A DNA stretch of 31,290 nucleotides from a virus: positions 1-31,290 of the IMG/VR virus record IMGVR_UViG_3300037862_000091. One strand, 5' to 3'. Below the pieces are notes generated by a model. The model saw nothing but the letters and a program-made list of their open reading frames with translations, had not been told where the DNA came from and did not search any database. The stretch's first letter is position 1; every line of letters begins with the position of its first letter. This document shows positions 6,701 to 14,340 of the stretch, one piece after another. Position numbers and translations under genes: made by a program.

Positions 6701-6850
6701 ATGCCCAACCAACCAAAGACACCTGCCCGCACTGTCCGCATCCCAGAGGACGTGTGGGCGGCTGTGCGCGCTCGAGCGGTCGCTGACGGAGTGACGGCAA
6801 CGGCGGTCATGCTGAACGCCCTACGGTCATTCCTGCATTTACCGAAGTGA
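6701..6850 (+). CDS. Ribbon-helix-helix DNA-binding protein, 49 aa
   Basis: This 49-residue protein has the Arc/MetJ/CopG pattern. A short basic tail (NQPKTPAR) leads to a beta strand (TVRIPEDVWAAV), a helix (RARAVADG), the Gly-Val-Thr turn and a second helix (ATAVMLNALRSFL). Such proteins dimerise through the strand and bind palindromic operators. The ATG follows the stop of the 75-aa gene by one base. The last 44 bases are antisense to the end of the methyltransferase gene. It most likely represses its own promoter by binding the palindrome at 6445-6457, which is an inference from context. Confidence 0.75.
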   Translation: MPNQPKTPARTVRIPEDVWAAVRARAVADGVTATAVMLNALRSFLHLPK

Positions 6851-7970
6851 GCAGGTAACGCACTGCCGCCGCCGCCTGCAAAGGCACAACACCATTGCCC
6901 AACGCCCGCAACTGTTCGTTGCGCGTCAGTCCCGCATCAGTGACATGACCTGCATTGAGGCCCATCATCCATTCAACGAAAAGTGCTGAGAGTCGGTGAT
7001 TGCCCTCCCGCCCATCGGGAACGGTGGGCGGTGGGGCTATGCGGCTGGTGGTTGCTTCCCAACGTCGGACTGCGGGTGCGTATTGTCCCCAATCGGTGTC
7101 GGCAACAACTGTTTGATTTCCCGCAGTTGCGGTGCGAACAATGCCCCGTTCAGATTCTTCGGCCCGCCCGTCCCATCCGACACAATCGGCGTGGAAAGCA
7201 GATGCTCCACCTCGTCGGCCAATGTCGGCCCGTGCCCGCCCGCCTTTCGCTTGTCCGGGTGTTGCGACCCGCCGTTGACCGCCAGCTGCGAGGTCGGCGT
7301 TTTCAACAGGTAGTAACCGACTGTCTCGGTGAGCGACCCGAACCCCGACTCCACATGCCTCATGGCTGCCGGTGCCTCCAGACTGAACCCCGCTTCGACC
7401 GCTTGAGGTGTCGGCAAGTTGCGCAAGGACAAAGACTCGGAATCGTCCGTGAGGGGCACCCACGTCGGCAGCCCGTAAACCGCACCAGCTCGCGTCATAC
7501 CCGAGATCGGCCAAGTCTCCAAGAACGGCTCCAAGTGCCCGCAAAGTAGGCTCACCTGATTTTTCTCCCACACACCACGTACACGGTTCCATGTCGCTGT
7601 TCGCTGTTGCACTGAGCAACCCCCTCACGTTTTCAATGACCACAAGTTGCGGACGCAACACGTCAATGGCGCGGGCAAACTCTGACCACAACCCCGACCG
7701 TGTGCCCTCAGACATTCCCGCCCGCCGGCCAGCCAACGACACGTCCTGACACGGAAAGCCGCCCGTCAGAATGTCCACCGGTTCAACCGCCGACCAATCA
7801 ACCGCCGTCACGTCGCCATAGTTCGGCACGTCCGGCCAGTGATAATCAAGAATCTTCGACGGTGCTTTGTCCCACTCAACATGCCAGGCAACGTCTGCAT
7901 CCAGGACACTCACCACGCCCATGTCCAAACCGCCGTAGCCGCTGAACAGTGAACCAATACGGGCCGTCAT
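6807..7970 (-). CDS. DNA cytosine-5 methyltransferase
   Basis: This 387-residue protein has the motif order of C5-cytosine methyltransferases. Motif I is GSLFSGYGGLDMG (residues 6-18), the S-adenosylmethionine site. Motif IV is GGFPCQDVS with catalytic Cys74. Motif VI is ENVRG (113-117), and motif VIII lies around GAPHGRFRVF (171-180). After a variable target-recognition region come motif IX-like LSALFVEWMMG and motif X LGNGVVPLQAA near the C-terminus. It would methylate cytosines in a short site to protect phage DNA from host restriction. No partner endonuclease lies beside it, so it is probably an orphan. Its start overlaps the upstream 89-aa gene by 4 nt. The variable region is also open in a second frame (7037-7612). 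Confidence 0.93.
   Translation of the reverse strand: MTARIGSLFSGYGGLDMGVVSVLDADVAWHVEWDKAPSKILDYHWPDVPNYGDVTAVDWSAVEPVDILTGGFPCQDVSLAGRRAGMSEGTRSGLWSEFARAIDVLRPQLVVIENVRGLLSATANSDMEPCTWCVGEKSGEPTLRALGAVLGDLADLGYDASWCGLRAADVGAPHGRFRVFVLAQLADTSSGRSGVQSGGTGSHEACGVGVRVAHRDSRLLPVENADLAAGGQRRVATPGQAKGGRARADIGRRGGASAFHADCVGWDGRAEESERGIVRTATAGNQTVVADTDWGQYAPAVRRWEATTSRIAPPPTVPDGREGNHRLSALFVEWMMGLNAGHVTDAGLTRNEQLRALGNGVVPLQAAAAVRYLLTSVNAGMTVGRSA
7037..7612 (-). other. Long overprinted +1 reading frame inside the methyltransferase gene
   Basis: This 191-codon GTG-started frame lies in the +1 frame of the methyltransferase, over its target-recognition region. Its translation is not random. It contains EPFLETWPISGMTRAGAVYG, then LPTWVPLT and repeated L-P-T-P units, phrases that occur as genuine sequence in many C5-methyltransferases. 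Both frames therefore look methyltransferase-like over the same DNA. It may be a second product, a relic of an ancestral frame switch, or a by-product of conserved sequence. No ribosome binding site was seen. Confidence 0.35.
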
Positions 7971-8236: not shown

Positions 8237-8844
8237 TCGCCAACCGCCGCAACAAAGTCAGGGTGCGCCTCATCGACGATTGCAGCGGGTTGCTTTGCCC
8301 GCACATACTCGGCACGGATCACACCCAACACAACCGCGCCCGCGTGAGCTGCCTTAGCCTCCCCACCCAACGCACCGATCAGGTCAACGTCGCCGTCAGC
8401 CGCCGCCAACTCTTTCAACCAGTCGCGCCCCGACGTGTCTTTGGGCGGTTCAACCGGGGTGAGCGGTTGCACGGTGAACGGCAGCCGACGGCCACGGGTG
8501 ACGGTGAGGGACACTTTGTGCGGTGCGTCAATGTGTGACATGTGCGAAATTTGAATACCGCCAACCTCATCCTTCCCAAACCGGATCGTCGGGTTGCGGA
8601 ACAACGTCAACTGGTGTCCAACATGATCTGCCGACTCAACACCCCACGCCGACACCATCACCCGACGCATCGACTTTGACGGTTTGTAGGGTCGCTCCGG
8701 CCCGAACTCGGCGGTGACTACGTTCACCGGCTGTTCAGCGTTACCCGTGATCACGTCAACGATGGTGACCGTGACAGGCCCGCCAATAAGGTCATCCGCG
8801 TTGAGTTGATCCGACTTCGGGGCAATGCTTTCGGTGAGGTTCAT
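8233..8844 (-). CDS. RecE-associated actinophage protein of unknown function
   Basis: This 203-residue protein starts MNLTESIAPKSDQLNADDL. That conserved opening, and the later segments YKPSKSMRRVMVSAWG and RFGKDEVGGIQISHMSHID, mark a family that routinely lies directly after the RecE-like exonuclease in actinophage genomes. The predicted fold is rich in beta strands (VTVTIVDVI, HKVSLTVTRGRRLPFTV) with a helical C-terminus. The pairing with an exonuclease suggests a role in homologous recombination or single-strand annealing, but it does not resemble RecT in sequence and no function is established. The ATG at 8844 overlaps the exonuclease stop by 4 nt. A longer frame upstream is unsupported. 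Confidence 0.7.
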   Translation of the reverse strand: MNLTESIAPKSDQLNADDLIGGPVTVTIVDVITGNAEQPVNVVTAEFGPERPYKPSKSMRRVMVSAWGVESADHVGHQLTLFRNPTIRFGKDEVGGIQISHMSHIDAPHKVSLTVTRGRRLPFTVQPLTPVEPPKDTSGRDWLKELAAADGDVDLIGALGGEAKAAHAGAVVLGVIRAEYVRAKQPAAIVDEAHPDFVAAVGE

Positions 8845-9689
8845 GCGTATTCTTCCTCTGCGTAAATGGCCCACATGGGCGGCTGTAAGGGGTCGCCGGT
8901 TGTTGCATATCCGGGCCACGAATTGGTTCGGGCACACTCGGCGTGTAATGCGCGAGCGCGGGCGGCGGCTGATGCACCGATTTCCCGGAATTGGTCGGAC
9001 AGTTCATGCACGGCCACCAGGTAGGGCGCTGCTGTTTCGACCACCACAAACTTCATGCCGAGATCTGCCAGCCCGGTCGTGAACGCGTACGTGTCCAAAT
9101 ACCATTCCTGTTGGATGTGGTATCCGTAGTTGGCAACCGTTTTGACGAACTCATGCGGTGCGGCCGACTTGCCCGTTGTTTTGAGGTCAACGCTGTACGG
9201 GTTGCTCACGGTGAAGTCGGGCAGGTAATCAAACCGGGCACGCATCTCCACACCCGTTGTGGGGTCGGTTGCGAACACGGACGCCTCAGCCATTCCCGAC
9301 TGTTCAAACAATGACCGTGCCTGCGGGTGCGCCAAAACACTCTCGGCCATACCGTTGACGTGCCTCAGCTGAGTTGCGGTGAGCAAGATTTGCCCTGCTG
9401 CCCGTTGCCCTGCCACCCATTCGACGGTTGCCGCTTTTGTGGACACCGCCCCGGATGGGGTCAAGTGTTCGTCCGGGTAGGCGACGGCTAAAGTGCCGGT
9501 GCCGAGCACGCGACTGTGAACTGCCGTGCCCAGGTCGTAAGCGTCTTTGTGTGGTTGTGGGTTGTGTTGTGCGTGGTGGAATCGGGCGGGTGAGTCGAGA
9601 AGCAGCCGTGCGCCTGTCGATGACAGGGCGTGGTGTGCGTGGTAGGTGGTTTCGTCGAGGTCTTTGACGACACCCTGCAAGTCGGTCAT
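8841..9689 (-). CDS. RecE-like PD-(D/E)XK exonuclease
   Basis: This 282-residue nuclease has the pattern of the RecE / exonuclease VIII C-terminal domain group. The N-terminal LSSTGARLLLDSPARFHH segment is the usual 'S-x-S-x-L' entry. A conserved His follows in DLGTAVHSRVLG. The catalytic core is MRARFDYLPDF with its Asp and then VDLKTTGKSA (D-x-K). A helix with YHIQQEWYLDTY (Q-x3-Y motif) completes the active site. It should digest double-stranded DNA 5' to 3', leaving 3' tails for annealing. It overlaps its neighbours on both sides by 4 nt and sits upstream of the partner protein at 8233-8844. Confidence 0.85.
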   Translation of the reverse strand: MTDLQGVVKDLDETTYHAHHALSSTGARLLLDSPARFHHAQHNPQPHKDAYDLGTAVHSRVLGTGTLAVAYPDEHLTPSGAVSTKAATVEWVAGQRAAGQILLTATQLRHVNGMAESVLAHPQARSLFEQSGMAEASVFATDPTTGVEMRARFDYLPDFTVSNPYSVDLKTTGKSAAPHEFVKTVANYGYHIQQEWYLDTYAFTTGLADLGMKFVVVETAAPYLVAVHELSDQFREIGASAAARARALHAECARTNSWPGYATTGDPLQPPMWAIYAEEEYA

Positions 9690-10096
9690 GATGCGTCCTT
9701 CGTCATCGGGTCGAGCACAATCACTGGGCGTTCGTCAGCGCCACCCTCAAGCAGTTGCACGAACGTTTCCAACGTCATCGACACGTACTGATCGGCGGGC
9801 TTGTTCGAGCCGTGCCGTTTATGCACGACCACGCCAATGGCGGCGTCATCGTTGCCGCGTTCAATCTCGGCCTGACGAATCCACAACGGCAGGTTGTCGC
9901 GCGACACGTTTTTGACCTCAATGACCACGCGCCCGCCGCGAATCGTGCGCACCCCGCCAACGTCGCCGCGATCCTTAGCACCGTTCTTCACACGCCGGTC
10001 AATGCGGTCGTCATGCAACGCAAACTTGAGGTAGTCGGCTACGAGCCGTTCGAACGAGCTGCCCGCCTTCTTCGCGGTCGCACGACTGCGCACCAT
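9686..10096 (-). CDS. Holliday-junction-resolvase-like nuclease
   Basis: This 136-residue protein has the archaeal Hjc/Hje type of PD-(D/E)XK motif. There is a Glu in the first helix (SSFERLVADYL, E16), an Asp after a turn (RGDVGG, D45) and the E-V-K triad (VVIEVKN, E60 and K62). A helix with a conserved Gln (WIRQAEIE) follows. The basic N-terminus (MVRSRATAKK) suits DNA binding. It should cleave branched DNA and resolve recombination or replication intermediates, consistent with its place just upstream of the RecE-like gene (4-nt overlap). The start overlaps the zinc-ribbon stop by one base (TGATG). Confidence 0.8.
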   Translation of the reverse strand: MVRSRATAKKAGSSFERLVADYLKFALHDDRIDRRVKNGAKDRGDVGGVRTIRGGRVVIEVKNVSRDNLPLWIRQAEIERGNDDAAIGVVVHKRHGSNKPADQYVSMTLETFVQLLEGGADERPVIVLDPMTKDAS

Positions 10097-10254
10097 CAGT
10101 GGCCCCTCAAGTGGTCGGTGTTACAGGTAGGGCACTGCCAACCGCTCGACCGCGTTTCCGGGTCGTACCAAACATCAGCACGCGACTCGTACAGGCACGC
10201 ATTGCAGGTACGCCACGCCTTGAACTCGGCCACGTTCACGCCCGACGAGTTCAC
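10096..10254 (-). CDS. Zinc-ribbon protein, 52 aa
   Basis: This small protein starts with GTG, read MNSSGVNVAEFKAWRTC. It has two Cys pairs 21 residues apart (CNAC at 17-20 and CPTC at 41-44), the spacing of a zinc ribbon or finger. The segment between them is rich in Tyr, Trp and Arg (LYESRADVWYDPETRSSGW). The GTG overlaps the upstream stop in a GTGA junction. It likely binds DNA, RNA or a protein partner. It precedes the nuclease and may assist it. The exact role is unknown. Confidence 0.7.
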   Translation of the reverse strand: MNSSGVNVAEFKAWRTCNACLYESRADVWYDPETRSSGWQCPTCNTDHLRGH

Positions 10255-10430
10255 AACCTCACACCCATAACGGACGCCGCCGCACCGTAACCAGCCGCAT
10301 ACGATGACGCAGCGGTTGCCGCGAGCAACGCCCGCAACGTCGCAAGGTCACCGTCGAGTGCCGCCATGACAAGGGGTGCGTAGTTGTCCATGATCTGGTC
10401 GGCAGCAATGTCACCGTATGAGGGGGTCAT
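10251..10430 (-). CDS. Hypothetical helical protein, 59 aa
   Basis: This protein starts MTPSYGDIAADQIMDNYAPL. It is rich in Ala and Leu (VMAALDGDLATLRALLAATAASSYAAGYGAA), most likely one or two amphipathic helices rather than a membrane segment, because acidic residues interrupt the hydrophobic runs. The ATG at 10430 overlaps the stop of the winged-helix gene by 4 nt. A longer start at 10445 is not needed. Function unknown. Confidence 0.6.
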   Translation of the reverse strand: MTPSYGDIAADQIMDNYAPLVMAALDGDLATLRALLAATAASSYAAGYGAAASVMGVRL

Positions 10431-10750
10431 GAGGTCACCGTCCACACGCGAGCGTTACGCCCCGATGGGGTGCGCTTCAACGCGCCGTCCACAATTTGCA
10501 CGCGGCCCTGCTCTTGCAGTTCCTTCAACGCGGTTCGAACGCGGGAGCTGGAGAAGAACCCAGCCAACGCCGCCTCAATTTCGAACGCGGCCAACTGGTG
10601 CCGTTTGTCGAAACAACGCAACACCCACATTTGCGAATCGCACACGTTGTTGCTGTCGGCGGCTTGGTGGGAGGTGAGTGGATCGGTTTTGCGGGTGCGT
10701 GCCGTGTCGTCCGGGAGGATCATCGGCGGTAAGGTGTTGAGTACGGGCAT
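10427..10750 (-). CDS. Winged-helix DNA-binding protein
   Basis: This 107-residue protein starts MPVLNTLPPMILPDDTAR. It contains the actinophage signature RKTDPLTSHQAADSNN followed by a winged-helix domain: helix (SQMWVLRCFDKRHQ), helix, recognition helix (SSSRVRTALKELQEQGRV) and wing (VQIVDGALKRTPSGRNARVWTV). Such proteins are common next to phage early genes and are presumed regulators or replication accessory proteins. The ATG at 10750 is preferred because AAAGG lies seven bases upstream. An in-frame ATG at 10801, which overlaps the previous stop by 4 nt, would add 17 residues and place the hairpin at 10774-10795 inside the coding sequence. Confidence 0.7.
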   Translation of the reverse strand: MPVLNTLPPMILPDDTARTRKTDPLTSHQAADSNNVCDSQMWVLRCFDKRHQLAAFEIEAALAGFFSSSRVRTALKELQEQGRVQIVDGALKRTPSGRNARVWTVTS

Positions 10751-10773
10751 TGGCTTGCCTTTCATTTCGGAGA

Positions 10774-10795
10774 CCCCCGCGGATACGGGGGTTTT
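10774..10795. other. GC-rich stem-loop before the winged-helix gene
   Basis: CCCCCG and CGGGGG (10774-10779 and 10786-10791) form a strong stem with a 6-base loop. On the plus strand it is followed by TTTT, like a rightward terminator, but no rightward gene lies upstream. On the leftward transcript it lies just ahead of the ribosome binding site of the 107-aa gene and might affect mRNA stability or translation. It could also terminate antisense transcripts. Confidence 0.5.
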
Positions 10796-10797
10796 CG

Positions 10798-10980
10798 TCA
10801 TTTGTGGAGAAGGTTGGGGAACGGTGTGGACTCCACCTCTAGAGCGGGCGGTACGTCGGCTAGTTCCTCGACGGGCGGCAACACGACCGGCAGTGACCGG
10901 ATAAGCCCCCACGCGGCCACGTAAATACCGGCCAGCGCAGTGAGCACGAACACCCACAACACGACCGTCAGGCCCGTCAC
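10798..10980 (-). CDS. Small membrane protein, 60 aa
   Basis: This protein starts with GTG (MTGLTVVLWVFVLTALAG) and has one hydrophobic span of about 22 residues (LTVVLWVFVLTALAGIYVAAWGL), followed by a Pro/Glu-rich tail (VVLPPVEELADVPPALEVE). The membrane span near the N-terminus and the acidic tail suggest a single-pass inner membrane protein. The GTG overlaps the stop of the 31-aa gene in a GTGA junction. Small membrane proteins right after cro in temperate phages often act in superinfection exclusion or as host-takeover factors. That role is only a possibility here. Confidence 0.65.
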   Translation of the reverse strand: MTGLTVVLWVFVLTALAGIYVAAWGLIRSLPVVLPPVEELADVPPALEVESTPFPNLLHK

Positions 10981-11072
10981 TTGCCGCTCCGAGATTGCAC
11001 GGCGCAAACAATGAAGTAGAGACTCCATGCGATCACCGCGACCACGATCAGCAAGATCGGATCGGCAGCCAT
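10977..11072 (-). CDS. Very small membrane protein, 31 aa
   Basis: This 31-residue ORF (MAADPILLIVVAVIAWSLYF, then IVCAVQSRSGK) is essentially one hydrophobic helix with a positively charged C-terminal end, typical of an N-out, C-in single-span miniprotein. The ATG is eight bases after the Cro stop. Its own stop overlaps the start of the next membrane protein (GTGA), so the two are probably made together and may form a complex. The overlap and complete hydrophobic span are the main support, because ORFs this short arise by chance. Confidence 0.55.
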   Translation of the reverse strand: MAADPILLIVVAVIAWSLYFIVCAVQSRSGK

Positions 11073-11080
11073 ATCGCCGG

Positions 11081-11302
11081 TCACGCGGCACGCTCACCAA
11101 AGAACACGCCCACCGGAGTGTTCAACACACGCGAGACGGCCAGCAGCTCGTCATACTTGAACTGCACCGACCCGTTCATCCGTCTGCTCATAGACATGCG
11201 GGTGATGCCGATTAGTTCGGCTAGGTGGCTGTGGGAAATGTTTTGCCGGGCGGATACCGCGCGGACTTCGGCTGCGACATCGCAGGGAGTTTGTTTCGCC
11301 AT
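11081..11302 (-). CDS. cro: Cro-like helix-turn-helix regulator
   Basis: This 73-residue protein starts MAKQTPCDVAAEVRAVSARQ. It is a single XRE-type helix-turn-helix domain, with helices around SHSHLAELIGI and TRMSMSRRMNGS (recognition helix) and a C-terminal LAVSRVLNTPVGVFFGE. It diverges from the repressor and opens the leftward early operon, the position of cro in lambdoid and BPs-type switches. The last segment (LNTPVGVFF) parallels the repressor's LNIPVTRFF, so the two regulators share a fold and perhaps operators. The ATG at 11302 is used. A GTG at 11311 would add three residues. No ribosome binding site was seen, and translation may be leaderless or start from the GTG. Confidence 0.75.
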   Translation of the reverse strand: MAKQTPCDVAAEVRAVSARQNISHSHLAELIGITRMSMSRRMNGSVQFKYDELLAVSRVLNTPVGVFFGERAA

Positions 11303-11330
11303 GCGTGACACGTTGCCATACAGCGCGGGA

Positions 11331-11349
11331 GTGTTACGTACTGCGTTAC
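11331..11349. promoter_or_regulatory. Operator half-sites upstream of cro
   Basis: Two direct copies of G(T/C)GTTAC lie at 11331-11337 and 11343-11349, 12 bp apart. They match the half-site of the perfect palindrome at 11406-11424. Their position just upstream of the Cro-like gene makes them candidate binding sites for the repressor and/or Cro at the leftward early promoter. Confidence 0.5.
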
Positions 11350-11405
11350 GGCGTGTCGCAAGCGGATGTTCGCTGTTGCGAATGTCGACGCGCCTCTAGC
11401 CATGC

Positions 11406-11432
11406 AGTAACGCTATGCGTTACTATTTGGGC
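11406..11432 (+). promoter_or_regulatory. Repressor promoter -10 box overlapped by palindromic operator
   Basis: AGTAACGCTATGCGTTACT (11406-11424) is a perfect 8-bp inverted repeat with a 3-bp centre. It overlaps a -10 box, TACTAT (11421-11426), which lies exactly six bases before the ATG at 11433. A transcript would therefore start at the ATG (leaderless). A protein on the palindrome would block the promoter, so the repressor gene is probably autoregulated or shut off by Cro. Confidence 0.7.
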
Positions 11433-11798
11433 ATGACAAACATCGAATCGACACCCGCAGAACTCGCAACCCGCGAAACAATCGCCGCCAACCTCGACGC
11501 CGAACTATCCCGCAAGCGATACACCAAACGCCGCGCCGCCCTCGCAATGGGACTAAGCCACGTTTACGTCACACGGCGCGCCAAAGGGCAAGTAGAACTG
11601 TCCGGCTCAGATATGGTCATGTTCGCCAAATTCTTGAACATTCCCGTGACCCGGTTTTTTGTAGGGCTCCCCGACTTGGACTCGAACCAAGAACCTGCCG
11701 GTTACACGCTTGACCACTCCGCCCACACCCGCATCCATAGTCAAAACCACTCTGCGAACGTTTTACATTTTCGCCCGCGCGCCAGCCAAAACTCTTAG
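11433..11798 (+). CDS. Immunity repressor with attP inside its coding region
   Basis: This 121-residue protein starts MTNIESTPAELATRETIAAN. It carries one helix-turn-helix domain (KRRAALAMGLSHVYVTRRAKGQVEL) and ends its folded part at about LNIPVTRFFVGLP, residue 80. From residue 78 on the coding sequence runs antisense through a tRNA-derived attP core, giving the peptide GLPDLDSNQEPAG, which is characteristic of translated tRNA. Residues 91-121 (YTLDHSAH to RASQNS) are a disordered tail encoded beyond the core. After recombination with a tRNA-Asn(GTT) gene, the TAC codon for Tyr91 becomes TAA, leaving 90 residues. This matches the integration-dependent immunity design of phages BPs, Brujita and Charlie. 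The viral tail has no clear ssrA-like ending. The ATG at 11433 is chosen over 11415 because of the leaderless promoter spacing. Confidence 0.8.
   Translation: MTNIESTPAELATRETIAANLDAELSRKRYTKRRAALAMGLSHVYVTRRAKGQVELSGSDMVMFAKFLNIPVTRFFVGLPDLDSNQEPAGYTLDHSAHTRIHSQNHSANVLHFRPRASQNS
11664..11704 (-). other. attP: attP core: 3' half of a tRNA-Asn(GTT) gene
   Basis: Read leftward, the sequence gives the end of a tRNA: TAACCGGC (end of anticodon loop and 3' anticodon stem), AGGTT (variable loop) and the T-arm CTTGG-TTCGAGT-CCAAG. It then has the acceptor strand TCGGGGA and discriminator G (11667). TCGGGGA would pair with a 5' TCCCCGA, and with the G discriminator and the TAA after the anticodon this points to tRNA-Asn(GTT). 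The 5' half is absent, so it is not a functional tRNA. It lies between repressor codons and next to the integrase, as expected of attP. Phages commonly carry the 3' half of the target tRNA so that the gene is restored on integration. Confidence 0.85.
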
Positions 11799-11878
11799 CG
11801 CGAAAACTAAAACGCGCGCGTGATGTGGCAGCCGCGCTTAAATCAAACTTCCACTCAGAGTAGAGAAACGGAACCGCC

Positions 11879-12697
11879 ATGATCGACGAATATGCCCAAC
11901 ACTTAGCCGCAGCGGGTCGAGCCGCGGGCACCATCAAACTACGCACCACCCACCTCACACACTTGAGCCGCCATTACAACCTCACCACAGTCACCACCGG
12001 GCAGCTTGAGCAAATGCTTGCCGCCCGACGTGACACGCACTCGGCAGAGTCCAGAAAATCGTTGCGCTCAAGCTACCGATCTTTTTACCGTTGGGCCGAC
12101 CGTACCGGCAACGTGACATCCAACCCCGCCGCAGACCTCACACCAATCACGGTACCGGTGAAGGTTGCGCGCGTTGCCGCCGACGACGTACTACAAAACG
12201 CGCTCATCGTTGCCGACCAATGGCAGACGGCCATGATTTACCTAGCCCGATTTGCCTGCCTGCGCCTGACCGAACTGACCACCTTGCACACAAGCCAGCG
12301 CACCAATGACGAGTTGCGCATCGTTGGCAAAGGCGACAAGGAACGGGTCGTGTACTGCAACGAAGACCTCATGCATGCACTGCTCACACTAGAACGCATT
12401 CAGGGTCGCGGCTACTACTTCCCCGGACGCATCAGCGGGCACATGCACTCCGCAAGTGTCAACAAAATTATGACCCGCCTGACCGGATGCAACCCGCACT
12501 CACTCAGGCACGCCGGCGCAACCGCCGCTTACAAAGCCACCGGCGATCTGCGCAGCGTTCAGCTCATGCTCGGCCATTCGAGTATGGCAACCACGCAACG
12601 CTATTTGCATCCAGGGGTAAACGAATTGCGTGCAGTCGCGGCAGGTACCGCGTTCGTGTCAAAAGACACCCGTTTTCGGGTGAGTGTTGCCGCGTAA
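11879..12697 (+). CDS. int: Tyrosine-family integrase
   Basis: This 272-residue protein has a SAM-like core-binding domain (residues 1-90) and a catalytic domain with the full set of active-site residues. These are Arg129 in ACLRLTEL, Lys154 in GKGDKERVV, His207 and Arg210 in HSLRH, His233 in LGHSS and the nucleophile Tyr242 in RYLH. It would recombine attP (11664-11704) with a host tRNA gene. There is no separate arm-binding domain before the core-binding domain, so it is a short, XerC/D-like integrase. A GGAACC motif precedes the ATG. The protein ends SVAA, loosely like the Leu-Ala-Ala tags that target proteins to ClpXP. In BPs-type phages integrase turnover decides lysogeny, so this ending deserves attention. 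After integration the gene is separated from the repressor by the prophage length. Confidence 0.93.
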   Translation: MIDEYAQHLAAAGRAAGTIKLRTTHLTHLSRHYNLTTVTTGQLEQMLAARRDTHSAESRKSLRSSYRSFYRWADRTGNVTSNPAADLTPITVPVKVARVAADDVLQNALIVADQWQTAMIYLARFACLRLTELTTLHTSQRTNDELRIVGKGDKERVVYCNEDLMHALLTLERIQGRGYYFPGRISGHMHSASVNKIMTRLTGCNPHSLRHAGATAAYKATGDLRSVQLMLGHSSMATTQRYLHPGVNELRAVAAGTAFVSKDTRFRVSVAA

Positions 12698-12714
12698 CCT
12701 TCCGGGCACGCAAA

Positions 12715-12765
12715 AAACGGCCCCGACCCACAACCCTGTGAAGGGAAGTGAGGCCGGGGCCGTTT
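12715..12765. terminator. Bidirectional terminator between integrase and lysis genes
   Basis: AAACGGCCCCG (12715-12725) and CGGGGCCGTTT (12755-12765) form a perfect 11-bp stem with a 29-nt loop. It has A-rich and T-rich sequence on its outer sides, so it can work in both directions. It lies between two convergent transcripts, the rightward integrase and the leftward lysis cassette. Confidence 0.8.
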
Positions 12766-12778
12766 CGTGTGGAGTTAC

Positions 12779-12856
12779 TTACTGGCAGCTGTCGCACTGC
12801 GTCAGGTCTGCCGGATCGATAGGGCAGGTGTATTCGCCCACCTTGTCGCCGCTCAC
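12779..12856 (-). CDS. 25-residue Cys-containing miniprotein
   Basis: This ORF reads MSGDKVGEYTCPIDPADLTQ followed by CDSCQ. Its three Cys residues (11, 21 and 24), the 'CPIDP' phrase and a CDSC end look designed rather than random, and similar tiny Cys proteins occur near lysis genes in actinophages. The GTG start overlaps the holin stop by 4 nt (GTGA). It is the last gene before the terminator at 12715-12765. It could bind a metal or form a disulfide. Function unknown. Confidence 0.55.
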   Translation of the reverse strand: MSGDKVGEYTCPIDPADLTQCDSCQ

Positions 12857-13020
12857 TCGGACACCTGCGGGCGGTTGGGGATGACCAACACGGAGATAGC
12901 AGCGGCCAACGCGATGACGGCTTGAATCCACGGTGCATACGCTTCCGGGATCAACCCGGCAAACGACACGGCGACCGCACCGAGTAGGGCAGACACAAAC
13001 TTCGCATATTCCTGAATCAT
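12853..13020 (-). CDS. Holin-like protein, 55 aa
   Basis: This protein starts MIQEYAKFVSALLGAVAVSF and has two membrane spans (residues about 8-25 and 31-48, the second being IQAVIALAAAISVLVIP) joined by a short Pro/Tyr/Trp loop. A short polar C-terminus (NRPQVSE) follows. This is the layout of small phage holins, which make the membrane lesion for lysis. AAAGG lies six bases before the ATG at 13020. It lies in the lysis cassette downstream of the M23 lysin. Small size and two spans fit a class II holin, but the activity is inferred. Confidence 0.75.
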   Translation of the reverse strand: MIQEYAKFVSALLGAVAVSFAGLIPEAYAPWIQAVIALAAAISVLVIPNRPQVSE

Positions 13021-13030
13021 GGGTGCCTTT

Positions 13031-13336
13031 CTAAACAACGGGAAACAACGTGCGAATGGACAAAATGAGTGCACCGACAGCGGCGAACCCGGTGACGAGT
13101 TGCGGCCACGTCATGCGGGGGACGGCGTGAGCTTTCAACACGGCAAGAAGTTCCCCGTGTTCCTCAATGCGTGTGCGCAATGCGGCAATGTCAGCCGACG
13201 TGGACGCGTTGATGGATGCTTGACGTGAATTGCCAGCCTCCACACTTGCGTGGAGTGATTTCACTTCCCCCTGGATTTGACCGAGCAGGTAGATGATTTG
13301 GTCTTGCGGTTTCATGGTCGCCGTAATGTCGGTCAT
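13031..13336 (-). CDS. Coiled-coil membrane protein, putative second holin
   Basis: This 101-residue protein starts MTDITATMKPQDQIIYLLGQ. The first 70 residues are a long amphipathic helix suited to a coiled coil (IQGEVKSLHASVEAGNSRQA, then IAALRTRIEEHGELLAVLK). The last 25 residues contain one membrane span (LVTGFAAVGALILSI) before RTLFPVV. A soluble coiled coil with a C-terminal anchor is typical of one class of actinophage holin or antiholin-like proteins. The ATG at 13336 overlaps the lysin stop by 4 nt (ATGA). The longer upstream frame is a low-complexity Arg/Pro shadow of the lysin linker and is rejected. Confidence 0.7.
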   Translation of the reverse strand: MTDITATMKPQDQIIYLLGQIQGEVKSLHASVEAGNSRQASINASTSADIAALRTRIEEHGELLAVLKAHAVPRMTWPQLVTGFAAVGALILSIRTLFPVV

Positions 13337-14340
13337 GCGGGTGGCCCTTGTTGGAAGAAGGCTAGGAGGGCGGCTAGGAGGGCGACGAGGGCGGCAATGA
13401 TGATGGCGGCGGGGTTGGGTTTGCCTGCTGGTGTTTCGTCGCCTTGCGCCGTTTCGGTCGGCGTTTCTAGTTTTGTGGGCACTTCGACCGGTACGAGAAT
13501 TGGGGTGACCGGTTCGGGTTCGGTGGGCGGTTCGACCGGCTCGGGTATCACGGGGGGCGCGGGCGGGTCGGGTTCGACCACCGGCGGTTGGACCTCCGGG
13601 GGTGATACGACCACGGGGGGTGATACGACCGCGGGGGGTGTCGGCACGAACGGCACCGGTGTTGCGTCCGTCAATCCTAAAACGGATTGACTGGTGAACC
13701 CACCCGACCAATACCAAAGACCGTTCACGCCCTGAAACCACAGTCGGTTGCCTTCCACAGACGCACCGGCAGTGGTGAACGCTTGCATGGTCACAGCAGT
13801 GTTGCGAAACGCAAGAGTGGCGGTGCCGCCAGCTTGTGGCACTGTGCGCCCGTTGGCACCATTCACGCCGGTCAAGCGATCGCGCACGCCGAGCGCGGGG
13901 GTGGGGGCCGGTGGTGCCGCAATGACCGAAACGCCTGGAAGGTCTTGAGTGAAGTATGGGCGTGGGTCAACCCGGTTGCCGTCGATGTACAACTCGAAGT
14001 GCAGGTGGATGCCGTTTGCGGTGCCCGTGTCACCCATCACTTGCACTTGCGTTGACGCGTCCACGATCTGCCCGACGCTTACCCGGATGCCGTTGTTGGG
14101 GGCGTGGTTGTACGTGGTGAAAGCTCGCGTGGTGTGTGCAATGGCAACCCGGTTGCCCCAACCACGATTGAAGCCAGCATTGTTCGCCACTTCAATGACA
14201 CGCCCTGGTGCGGCGGCGACGACACGACGGGTGCCTGCTGGGTCACGGTTGAACCATCCCCAGTCGATGCCGTTGTGGACGCCGCCCGGTTTAAAGGGTT
14301 GCGATTCCCAACCCCACGGTGCCGGTGTTGTGAGTTTCAC
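13333..14340 (-). CDS. M23 endopeptidase lysin with C-terminal membrane anchor
   Basis: This 335-residue protein starts with GTG, with GGAGG five bases upstream, and is read MKLTTPAPWGWESQPF. The N-terminal 130 residues form a LytM/M23 zinc peptidase: VHNGIDWG (His22, Asp26), YNHA (His79) and GIHLHFE (His112, His114). It should cut peptide cross-links of peptidoglycan. A middle region of about 75 residues (LTGVNGANGRTVPQ, LWFQGVNGLWYWSG) looks like an SH3-type wall-binding domain. It is followed by a Pro/Val/Glu-rich linker of about 90 residues and a last hydrophobic segment (AAIIIAALVALLAALLAFF, about 311-329). There is no N-terminal signal peptide. The C-terminal anchor is unusual for a lysin. 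The protein heads the lysis cassette; virion-associated use is an alternative. Confidence 0.8.
   Translation of the reverse strand: MKLTTPAPWGWESQPFKPGGVHNGIDWGWFNRDPAGTRRVVAAAPGRVIEVANNAGFNRGWGNRVAIAHTTRAFTTYNHAPNNGIRVSVGQIVDASTQVQVMGDTGTANGIHLHFELYIDGNRVDPRPYFTQDLPGVSVIAAPPAPTPALGVRDRLTGVNGANGRTVPQAGGTATLAFRNTAVTMQAFTTAGASVEGNRLWFQGVNGLWYWSGGFTSQSVLGLTDATPVPFVPTPPAVVSPPVVVSPPEVQPPVVEPDPPAPPVIPEPVEPPTEPEPVTPILVPVEVPTKLETPTETAQGDETPAGKPNPAAIIIAALVALLAALLAFFQQGPPA

Follow-up and report, generated by a model that had tools for sequence, protein, structure and literature searches.

Predicted integration-dependent immunity switch at a host tRNA-Asn(GTT) gene in a tailed-phage sequence

The window, that is, the whole stretch of DNA analysed here, is a 31,290-base IMG/VR record that is classed as linear and has a GC content of 58.9%; its minus strand carries tailed-phage genes for terminase, portal, head and tail, as found in a scan of 10 of its ORFs. 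Its repressor–integrase region comprises the following features.

11081..11311, minus strand: divergent Cro-like/excise-like HTH gene, upstream of the repressor
11406..11424: candidate repressor operator, a perfect inverted repeat AGTAACGC-TAT-GCGTTACT that covers the ATG at 11415
11433..11798, plus strand: repressor gene, viral form of 121 aa; match to phrog_4583 (repressor) at 2.5e-07; N-terminal part with an XRE/lambda-repressor-like fold
11433-11702, plus strand, then TAA: predicted prophage-form repressor, residues 1-90
11666..11704: attP common core, 39 bp, antisense 3′ half of tRNA-Asn(GTT), exact match to hosts
11703..11705, plus strand: codon 91, TAC (Tyr) in attP, predicted to become TAA at attL
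11703..11795, plus strand: viral-only C-terminal tail of 31 residues, YTLDHSAHTRIHSQNHSANVLHFRPRASQNS
11879..12697, plus strand: tyrosine integrase of 272 aa, without an arm-binding domain, C-terminus -SVAA

A sequence-only reading had proposed this layout, with the repressor running antisense over the 3′ half of a tRNA gene, the integrase following it and a divergent HTH gene on its upstream side, and the layout was confirmed except that the core, at 39 bp, is slightly shorter than the 11664-11704 given there. The integrase was judged armless from the protein rather than from DNA arm sites, its Pfam core-binding match beginning at residue 15. The inverted repeat occurs at 1 site in the window when up to 3 mismatches are allowed, against 0.10 expected. 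The ATG inside this repeat is in frame with the repressor (MRYYLG, 11415-11432) and would give alternative repressor forms of 127 and 96 residues. Near the switch lie genes for a DNA methyltransferase (6807-7970, minus), an exonuclease VIII-like protein (8841-9689, minus) and a RusA-like resolvase (9686-10096, minus), the last being the sole stretch within 9000-14000 with DNA similarity to known phages among the best 20 of 47 matches. ARAGORN placed a tRNA-Ser(CGA) at 10481-10573 (minus), within a leftward ORF (10427-11011) having PHROG matches; this is likely a false call.

The repressor reads ...FVGLPDLDSNQEPAG followed by YTLDHSAHTRIHSQNHSANVLHFRPRASQNS, where LPDLDSNQEPAG is the antisense reading of the tRNA-Asn 3′ half. 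As previously stated, the last core codon in attP is GGT (codon 90, 11700-11702) and the next is TAC. The genome collection was searched with a 37-bp core (11667-11703) that ended at CCGGTT, because the anticodon was not to be presupposed; the flanking G before it and A after it proved to be shared too, giving the 39 bp. This search returned 113 sites with the exact 37-bp core, by title largely from Microbacteriaceae genera (no count made). Past the core, 112 of the 113 continue AACAGCCG, the remaining one (L019) being cut at the core, and ARAGORN called tRNA-Asn(GTT) at the site in all nine of the 113 loci that were submitted. The proposed host site, tRNA-Asn(GTT) with GGT-TAA, was thus borne out. 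Hosts read GCC GGT TAA and the phage GCC GGT TAC, so that a single base decides between stop and Tyr, and from the host sequence at 112/113 sites the repressor is predicted to shorten from 121 to 90 residues at an in-frame TAA, a loss of 31 residues as foreseen. The further idea that the host anticodon loop itself supplies the stop stands for the third base only (C to A), opposite anticodon base U35, the first two bases belonging to the common core. In tRNA numbering, the TAA lies opposite A37, U36 and U35. The second frame of the host tRNA antisense stretch is stop-free, and the third has only a later stop. The tRNA-Asn gene pattern occurs once in each of nine host genomes. Integration would rebuild the 3′ end of the attB tRNA, and a rebuilt tRNA-Asn is visible in relatives, namely at six prophage junctions and in contig L003.

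When known phage records were compared with a 58-base query, none of the matches listed spanned the core region in full; 2 of the 352 matching records cover at least 80% of the query, and many of the best 60 of these 352 matches are phage tRNA genes. No integrated copy of the window's own phage was found in the sequences searched. Several candidates were set aside: L023 (Naasia aerilata), whose tblastn match has no HTH repressor, was rejected as a prophage; at bacterial tRNA-Asn sites elsewhere, the long open frames on the antisense strand (up to 821 aa, L033) look by eye like chance frames of GC-rich DNA; L136 and L137 lie inside called tRNA genes and L135 in a region rich in tRNAs, none of them called at its own position; and attP was not seen in L132-L134, which start inside the integrase.

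The prophage junctions that the sequence-only reading had suggested searching for were found in relatives. On the 41,662-base contig L003, an intact tRNA-Asn(GTT) at 57-130 is overlapped antisense by a 103-aa repressor that ends ...SNQEPAG-TAA and is 48.5% identical to the window's over the aligned part, and the other end of the contig carries an integrase 59% identical to the window's. Contig L005 breaks off exactly where the core and a following AA end, and hence shows this stop as well; its record yielded no integrase. Of 398 genomes sampled from the family to which the Leifsonia genome G006 (carrying L007) belongs, 37 gave an integrase match at E≤1e-25. Six of the seven strongest (E≤1e-77) have a tRNA-Asn-type core and an in-frame tail upstream of the integrase, the seventh (G086) having no tRNA-like core there. 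All six prophages (G074, G052, G068, G377, G283 and G201), assigned to the Leifsonia family by this sampling, have both junctions on the same contig, separated by 16.9-45.9 kb and sharing exact cores of 35-70 bp, and one tRNA-Asn pattern per genome. One end holds an intact tRNA-Asn(GTT) overlapping convergently with a truncated repressor, which stops immediately after the core in 6/6, and the other end holds the core, an in-frame tail of 31-41 residues and the integrase. PHROG transcription-regulator families match the repressors of 8/9 relatives at E≤0.01, and the repressor of the ninth, G074, is 73% identical to that of G283. At the level of sequence, these data establish the site, the frame and the stop, and the relatives additionally show both junctions, with the tRNA rebuilt and the tail remaining at the far one. 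When a further 396 genomes were sampled across the order, 3 integrase matches passed E≤1e-45 (best 8.6e-47), which suggests that the close integrase clade is concentrated in the Leifsonia family. G086, G025 and G407 have related integrases, yet their tRNA-Asn has no overlapping repressor. By eye, the common cores of 70 and 65 bp at L189 and L192 (G052 and G068) include a hairpin that resembles a tRNA terminator and is read as repressor codons.

The reading frame across the core was then assessed in viral contigs. A scan with a looser tRNA-Asn pattern gave at least 130 hits on at least 120 stretches, most of them without a repressor; 69 of the 130 matches listed, a sample that may be biased, are intact tRNA genes by the bases following the core. 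Using ten repressor bodies, cut before the core, as queries (E≤1e-4), repressor homology in the window's frame was found for 32 of the 130 matches listed and in the other two frames for 0 and 0. These 32 include L002, L003 and L004, which gave or nearly equal query repressors, and one duplicate (L307), and since all queries come from the same family, unrelated repressors in other frames would be missed. In thirteen of the 32, a TAA follows the core directly; the other 19 (18 unique) stay open for another 13-63 residues. Of the former, seven go on into tRNA-Asn sequence (AACAGCC or AACAGTC) and six reach the end of their contig with the TAA; with L005, at least 14 viral contigs thus have TAA right after the core, and no tRNA is visible in the seven ending there. 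The two classes are defined by the stop, and integrase proximity therefore provides an independent check: an integrase match lies within 2.5 kb downstream in 18 of the 19 read-on hits and in none of the 13 stop hits, six of which have no downstream sequence. In the 19, the codon after the core is TAC in 7 and TAT in 4, each one base from TAA. One further hit, L259, also has TAA after the core; its weaker repressor homology (8e-4) falls outside the cut-off. Openness alone is no evidence for the frame, since after the core the +1 frame stays open longer (39-45 codons) than the repressor frame (27-30 codons) in G000/G003/G004 (window, G003, G004).

Next, the tail was considered. An AlphaFold2 model of the repressor (five-sequence alignment, mean pLDDT 74.8) shows a five-helix HTH domain, with ten-residue block means of 86-96 for residues 11-80 and 41-51 for residues 81-121, so that both the core-encoded segment and the tail are low. 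Foldseek matched it to C-protein, ClgR, XRE and lambda repressor domains (best E 1.3e-04). As the confident fold spans residues 11-80, the 90-residue form is predicted to retain the whole DNA-binding domain. The 31-residue tail is likely a degron, and it looks like a disordered, exchangeable one. The two closest relatives end -RAS (...TADVLHFRPRAS and ...TANVLHFRPRAS), and the window adds QNS, ending RASQNS with no canonical tag; because its tail runs three residues past the relatives' end, its degron may be weakened or lost. Over the last eleven shared tail codons (ANVLHFRPRAS), the window and G003 have 3 silent and 0 replacing differences, while the amino acid differs at 12 of 28 aligned tail codons; against G004 this stretch has one replacement, N to D. 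Of the 18 unique attP tails among the matches listed, 8 end -AA, as does 1 of the 6 in the genome prophages; the rest end -AS, -FA, -AI, -NR, -RQ and more. The relatives' ends include -RAA and -KDAA. Host tmRNA tags end FALAA in 11/11 tmRNAs above the cut-off (13 genomes searched). Integrases end -AA in 8/10 cases (three of the ten being one lineage), compared with 2/479 long open frames in host loci. A C-terminal integrase tag such as the window's -SVAA is typical of BPs-type systems, although some published members have none. The tails share a [DNE]AV[VI]-like 6-residue motif, which was noticed before it was tested and whose score was reached by 0/150 shuffles (329 against 317 for the best shuffle, or 228 against 227 once the two known phages are removed), the shuffles having 25 starts against 60 for the real set, which slightly favours the latter. 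It is driven mainly by G074, G052, G068, G377, G283 and Angel and is weak in the window lineage and G201. For the G001 tail no certain reading was obtained, the contig ending near it.

Among known systems, the mycobacteriophages BPs and Angel (cluster G; Brujita and Charlie have this kind of immunity too) resemble the window in the repressor–integrase order, the divergent Cro-like gene, the core inside the repressor, the tRNA attB and the host base beside the core that completes a stop at the third codon position. The tail has 31 residues in the window and 33 in these phages, and the integrases of Angel and the window are 33% identical. They differ from the window in that attB is tRNA-Arg instead of tRNA-Asn, TGA arises from a Cys codon instead of TAA from a Tyr codon, the antisense frame reads GFEPPTFC instead of DSNQEPAG, and the stop falls at about positions 38-40 (as inferred from Angel's sequence) instead of opposite the anticodon; the window's host is of Microbacteriaceae type. 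The Gordonia phages GMA5 and Emperor share the antisense frame (DSNPEPAD), and integrases of Gordonia CW/Emperor are among the closest (35-37%), whereas the tails of GMA5 and Emperor end -AA (Emperor ...DLVPLRPVAA). A tRNA-Lys anticodon loop should presumably also give TAA. Unlike the window, cluster CW (GMA5, GRU3, Jeanie, McGonagall) uses a tRNA-Lys attB (available part of PMC5559632), and the accessible portion of PMC9262239 describes how, for BPs at tRNA-Arg, the host base beside the core makes the third-position stop. The sequence-only reading had argued from the missing Leu-Ala-Ala end that the mechanism would differ. This does not follow by itself, because the repressor of Angel (136 aa, ...NADVLPGPWSTLDKAS) has -KAS at its end and those of the window's two closest relatives have -RAS, and because, as far as the available text of PMC4557955 goes, the 136-residue BPs gp33-136 is stabilised by A135E; A135 would be the Ala of -KAS, assuming that BPs and Angel agree there.

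Integration-dependent immunity has also been described in the available parts of PMC9934374, PMC5559632 and PMC6109161. Of the Mycobacterium abscessus prophages MabB, C, H, K, N and O, MabC, K, N and O have a stop at the first host base at attL, and the repressors of MabC, N, O and H carry no ssrA-like tags, members without such tags being accepted there (PMC8092301, available part). Unlike the window, they use other attB sites, and 'tRNAasn' does not occur in the available main text of that paper. The M. abscessus prophage records MW584153, MW584173, MW584189, MW584157 and MW584209 contain, at their ends or close by, sequence that matches the window core at 82-89%; the same available part assigns at least four of these prophages, which it names almost identically, to attB-4, a site that it does not list as integration-dependent. 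The Bifidobacterium Bb423phi2 / 689b-1 system differs by its tRNA-Met site and 18-residue tail (PMC6109161, available part). According to the accessible sections of the respective papers, attP/attB cores commonly overlap anticodon loops in mycobacteriophages (PMC10865867), and Arthrobacter phage Galaxy has a similar layout with attP not in the repressor (PMC5513430).

On this evidence, the locus is very probably an integration-dependent immunity switch of the BPs type. On infection, the repressor would be made with the 31-residue unstructured tail, which probably marks it for proteolysis, so that it could not hold lysogeny; the long form would hence be unstable or inactive, as we infer. The integrase would recombine the core inside the repressor gene with the host tRNA-Asn(GTT), the tRNA being rebuilt with a phage-derived 3′ half and the tail left at the other junction beside the integrase. 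The repressor would then end at the TAA read opposite A37-U36-U35, and the 90-residue protein would be stable and active, repressing the divergent early operon, presumably through the candidate operator.

The rival explanations were weighed against the same data. The core might lie in the repressor by accident of a compact layout, with both forms repressing equally and integration switching no immunity. The window tail has no canonical tag, and DNA binding in vitro is similar for the long and the short BPs repressor (available part of PMC4557955), as such an accident would allow; but the use of one frame of three in all 32 repressor-homology hits among the matches listed, the stop right after the core in 6/6 genome prophages and the conservation of the tail C-terminus within an otherwise diverged region argue against it, and we regard it as improbable. 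That the tail instead inactivates the viral form sterically, by blocking oligomer formation or DNA binding, is unlikely rather than improbable: many tails, the window's included, do not end -AA, whereas the host tmRNA tags end FALAA (11/11), yet the tail is predicted to be disordered, and the BPs long form, which binds DNA like the short one, is inactive through degradation according to the accessible text of PMC4557955. Most improbable is a mainly transcriptional effect, in which transcription of the tRNA-Asn runs towards the repressor 3′ end and the repressor level is set by the antisense overlap, truncation being secondary. It is consistent with the convergent overlap in the six genome prophages and with the terminator-like hairpin seen by eye in the G052 and G068 cores, but would leave the strict frame and the immediate stop unexplained.

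The core also marks a boundary between differently related sequences. G003 and the window are 96.2% identical over 320 bases left of the core and 64.0% over 175 bases right of it; for G003 and G004 the corresponding values are 30.8% and 94.3%. The integrase DNA is 94-95% identical among all three, farther upstream the identity is again mosaic (52-70%), and the G004 repressor head gave no blastp match to the window's at 1e-3, though the integrase is 96% identical. Since two anticodon bases plus A37 read TAA antisense and the gene pattern occurs once per genome (nine genomes), the host would hardly be able to mutate the stop away. We hold the chances to be even that tRNA-Asn is a preferred, evolutionarily locked stop donor, and that a large group of phages, apparently not reported before and differing in their partly unrelated repressor heads, shares the core in one frame as an exchange joint for heads and degron tails. 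The joint idea is not wholly new, diverged repressors with shared cores having been noted for Gordonia phages (PMC4929511; available part of PMC5559632). In the window, the tail plus spacer (11703-11878) is the stretch that is 64% identical to G003, and the +1 frame is open here too.

A literature search returned no report of integration-dependent immunity at tRNA-Asn or in Microbacteriaceae, although an isolate paper or a supplementary table may still contain one. The mechanism is already known; the tRNA-Asn site, for which no report was found, is apparently new. A switch in which integration edits the immunity protein, so far described for mycobacterial, Gordonia and bifidobacterial phages, is thereby extended to Microbacteriaceae and tRNA-Asn, and the data suggest that such a switch is common in uncultured viruses. 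The use of one frame across diverse repressors offers a natural tail series for degron mapping, and because TAC and TAA differ by one base, the switch can be tested directly.

Within the 398-genome sample, related integrases were also observed beside antisense T-arm-like stretches of other tRNAs in L166, L168-L171, L174, L175, L177 and L181, which are possibly further integration-dependent systems at other tRNAs; L177 has an open frame ending RLAA.
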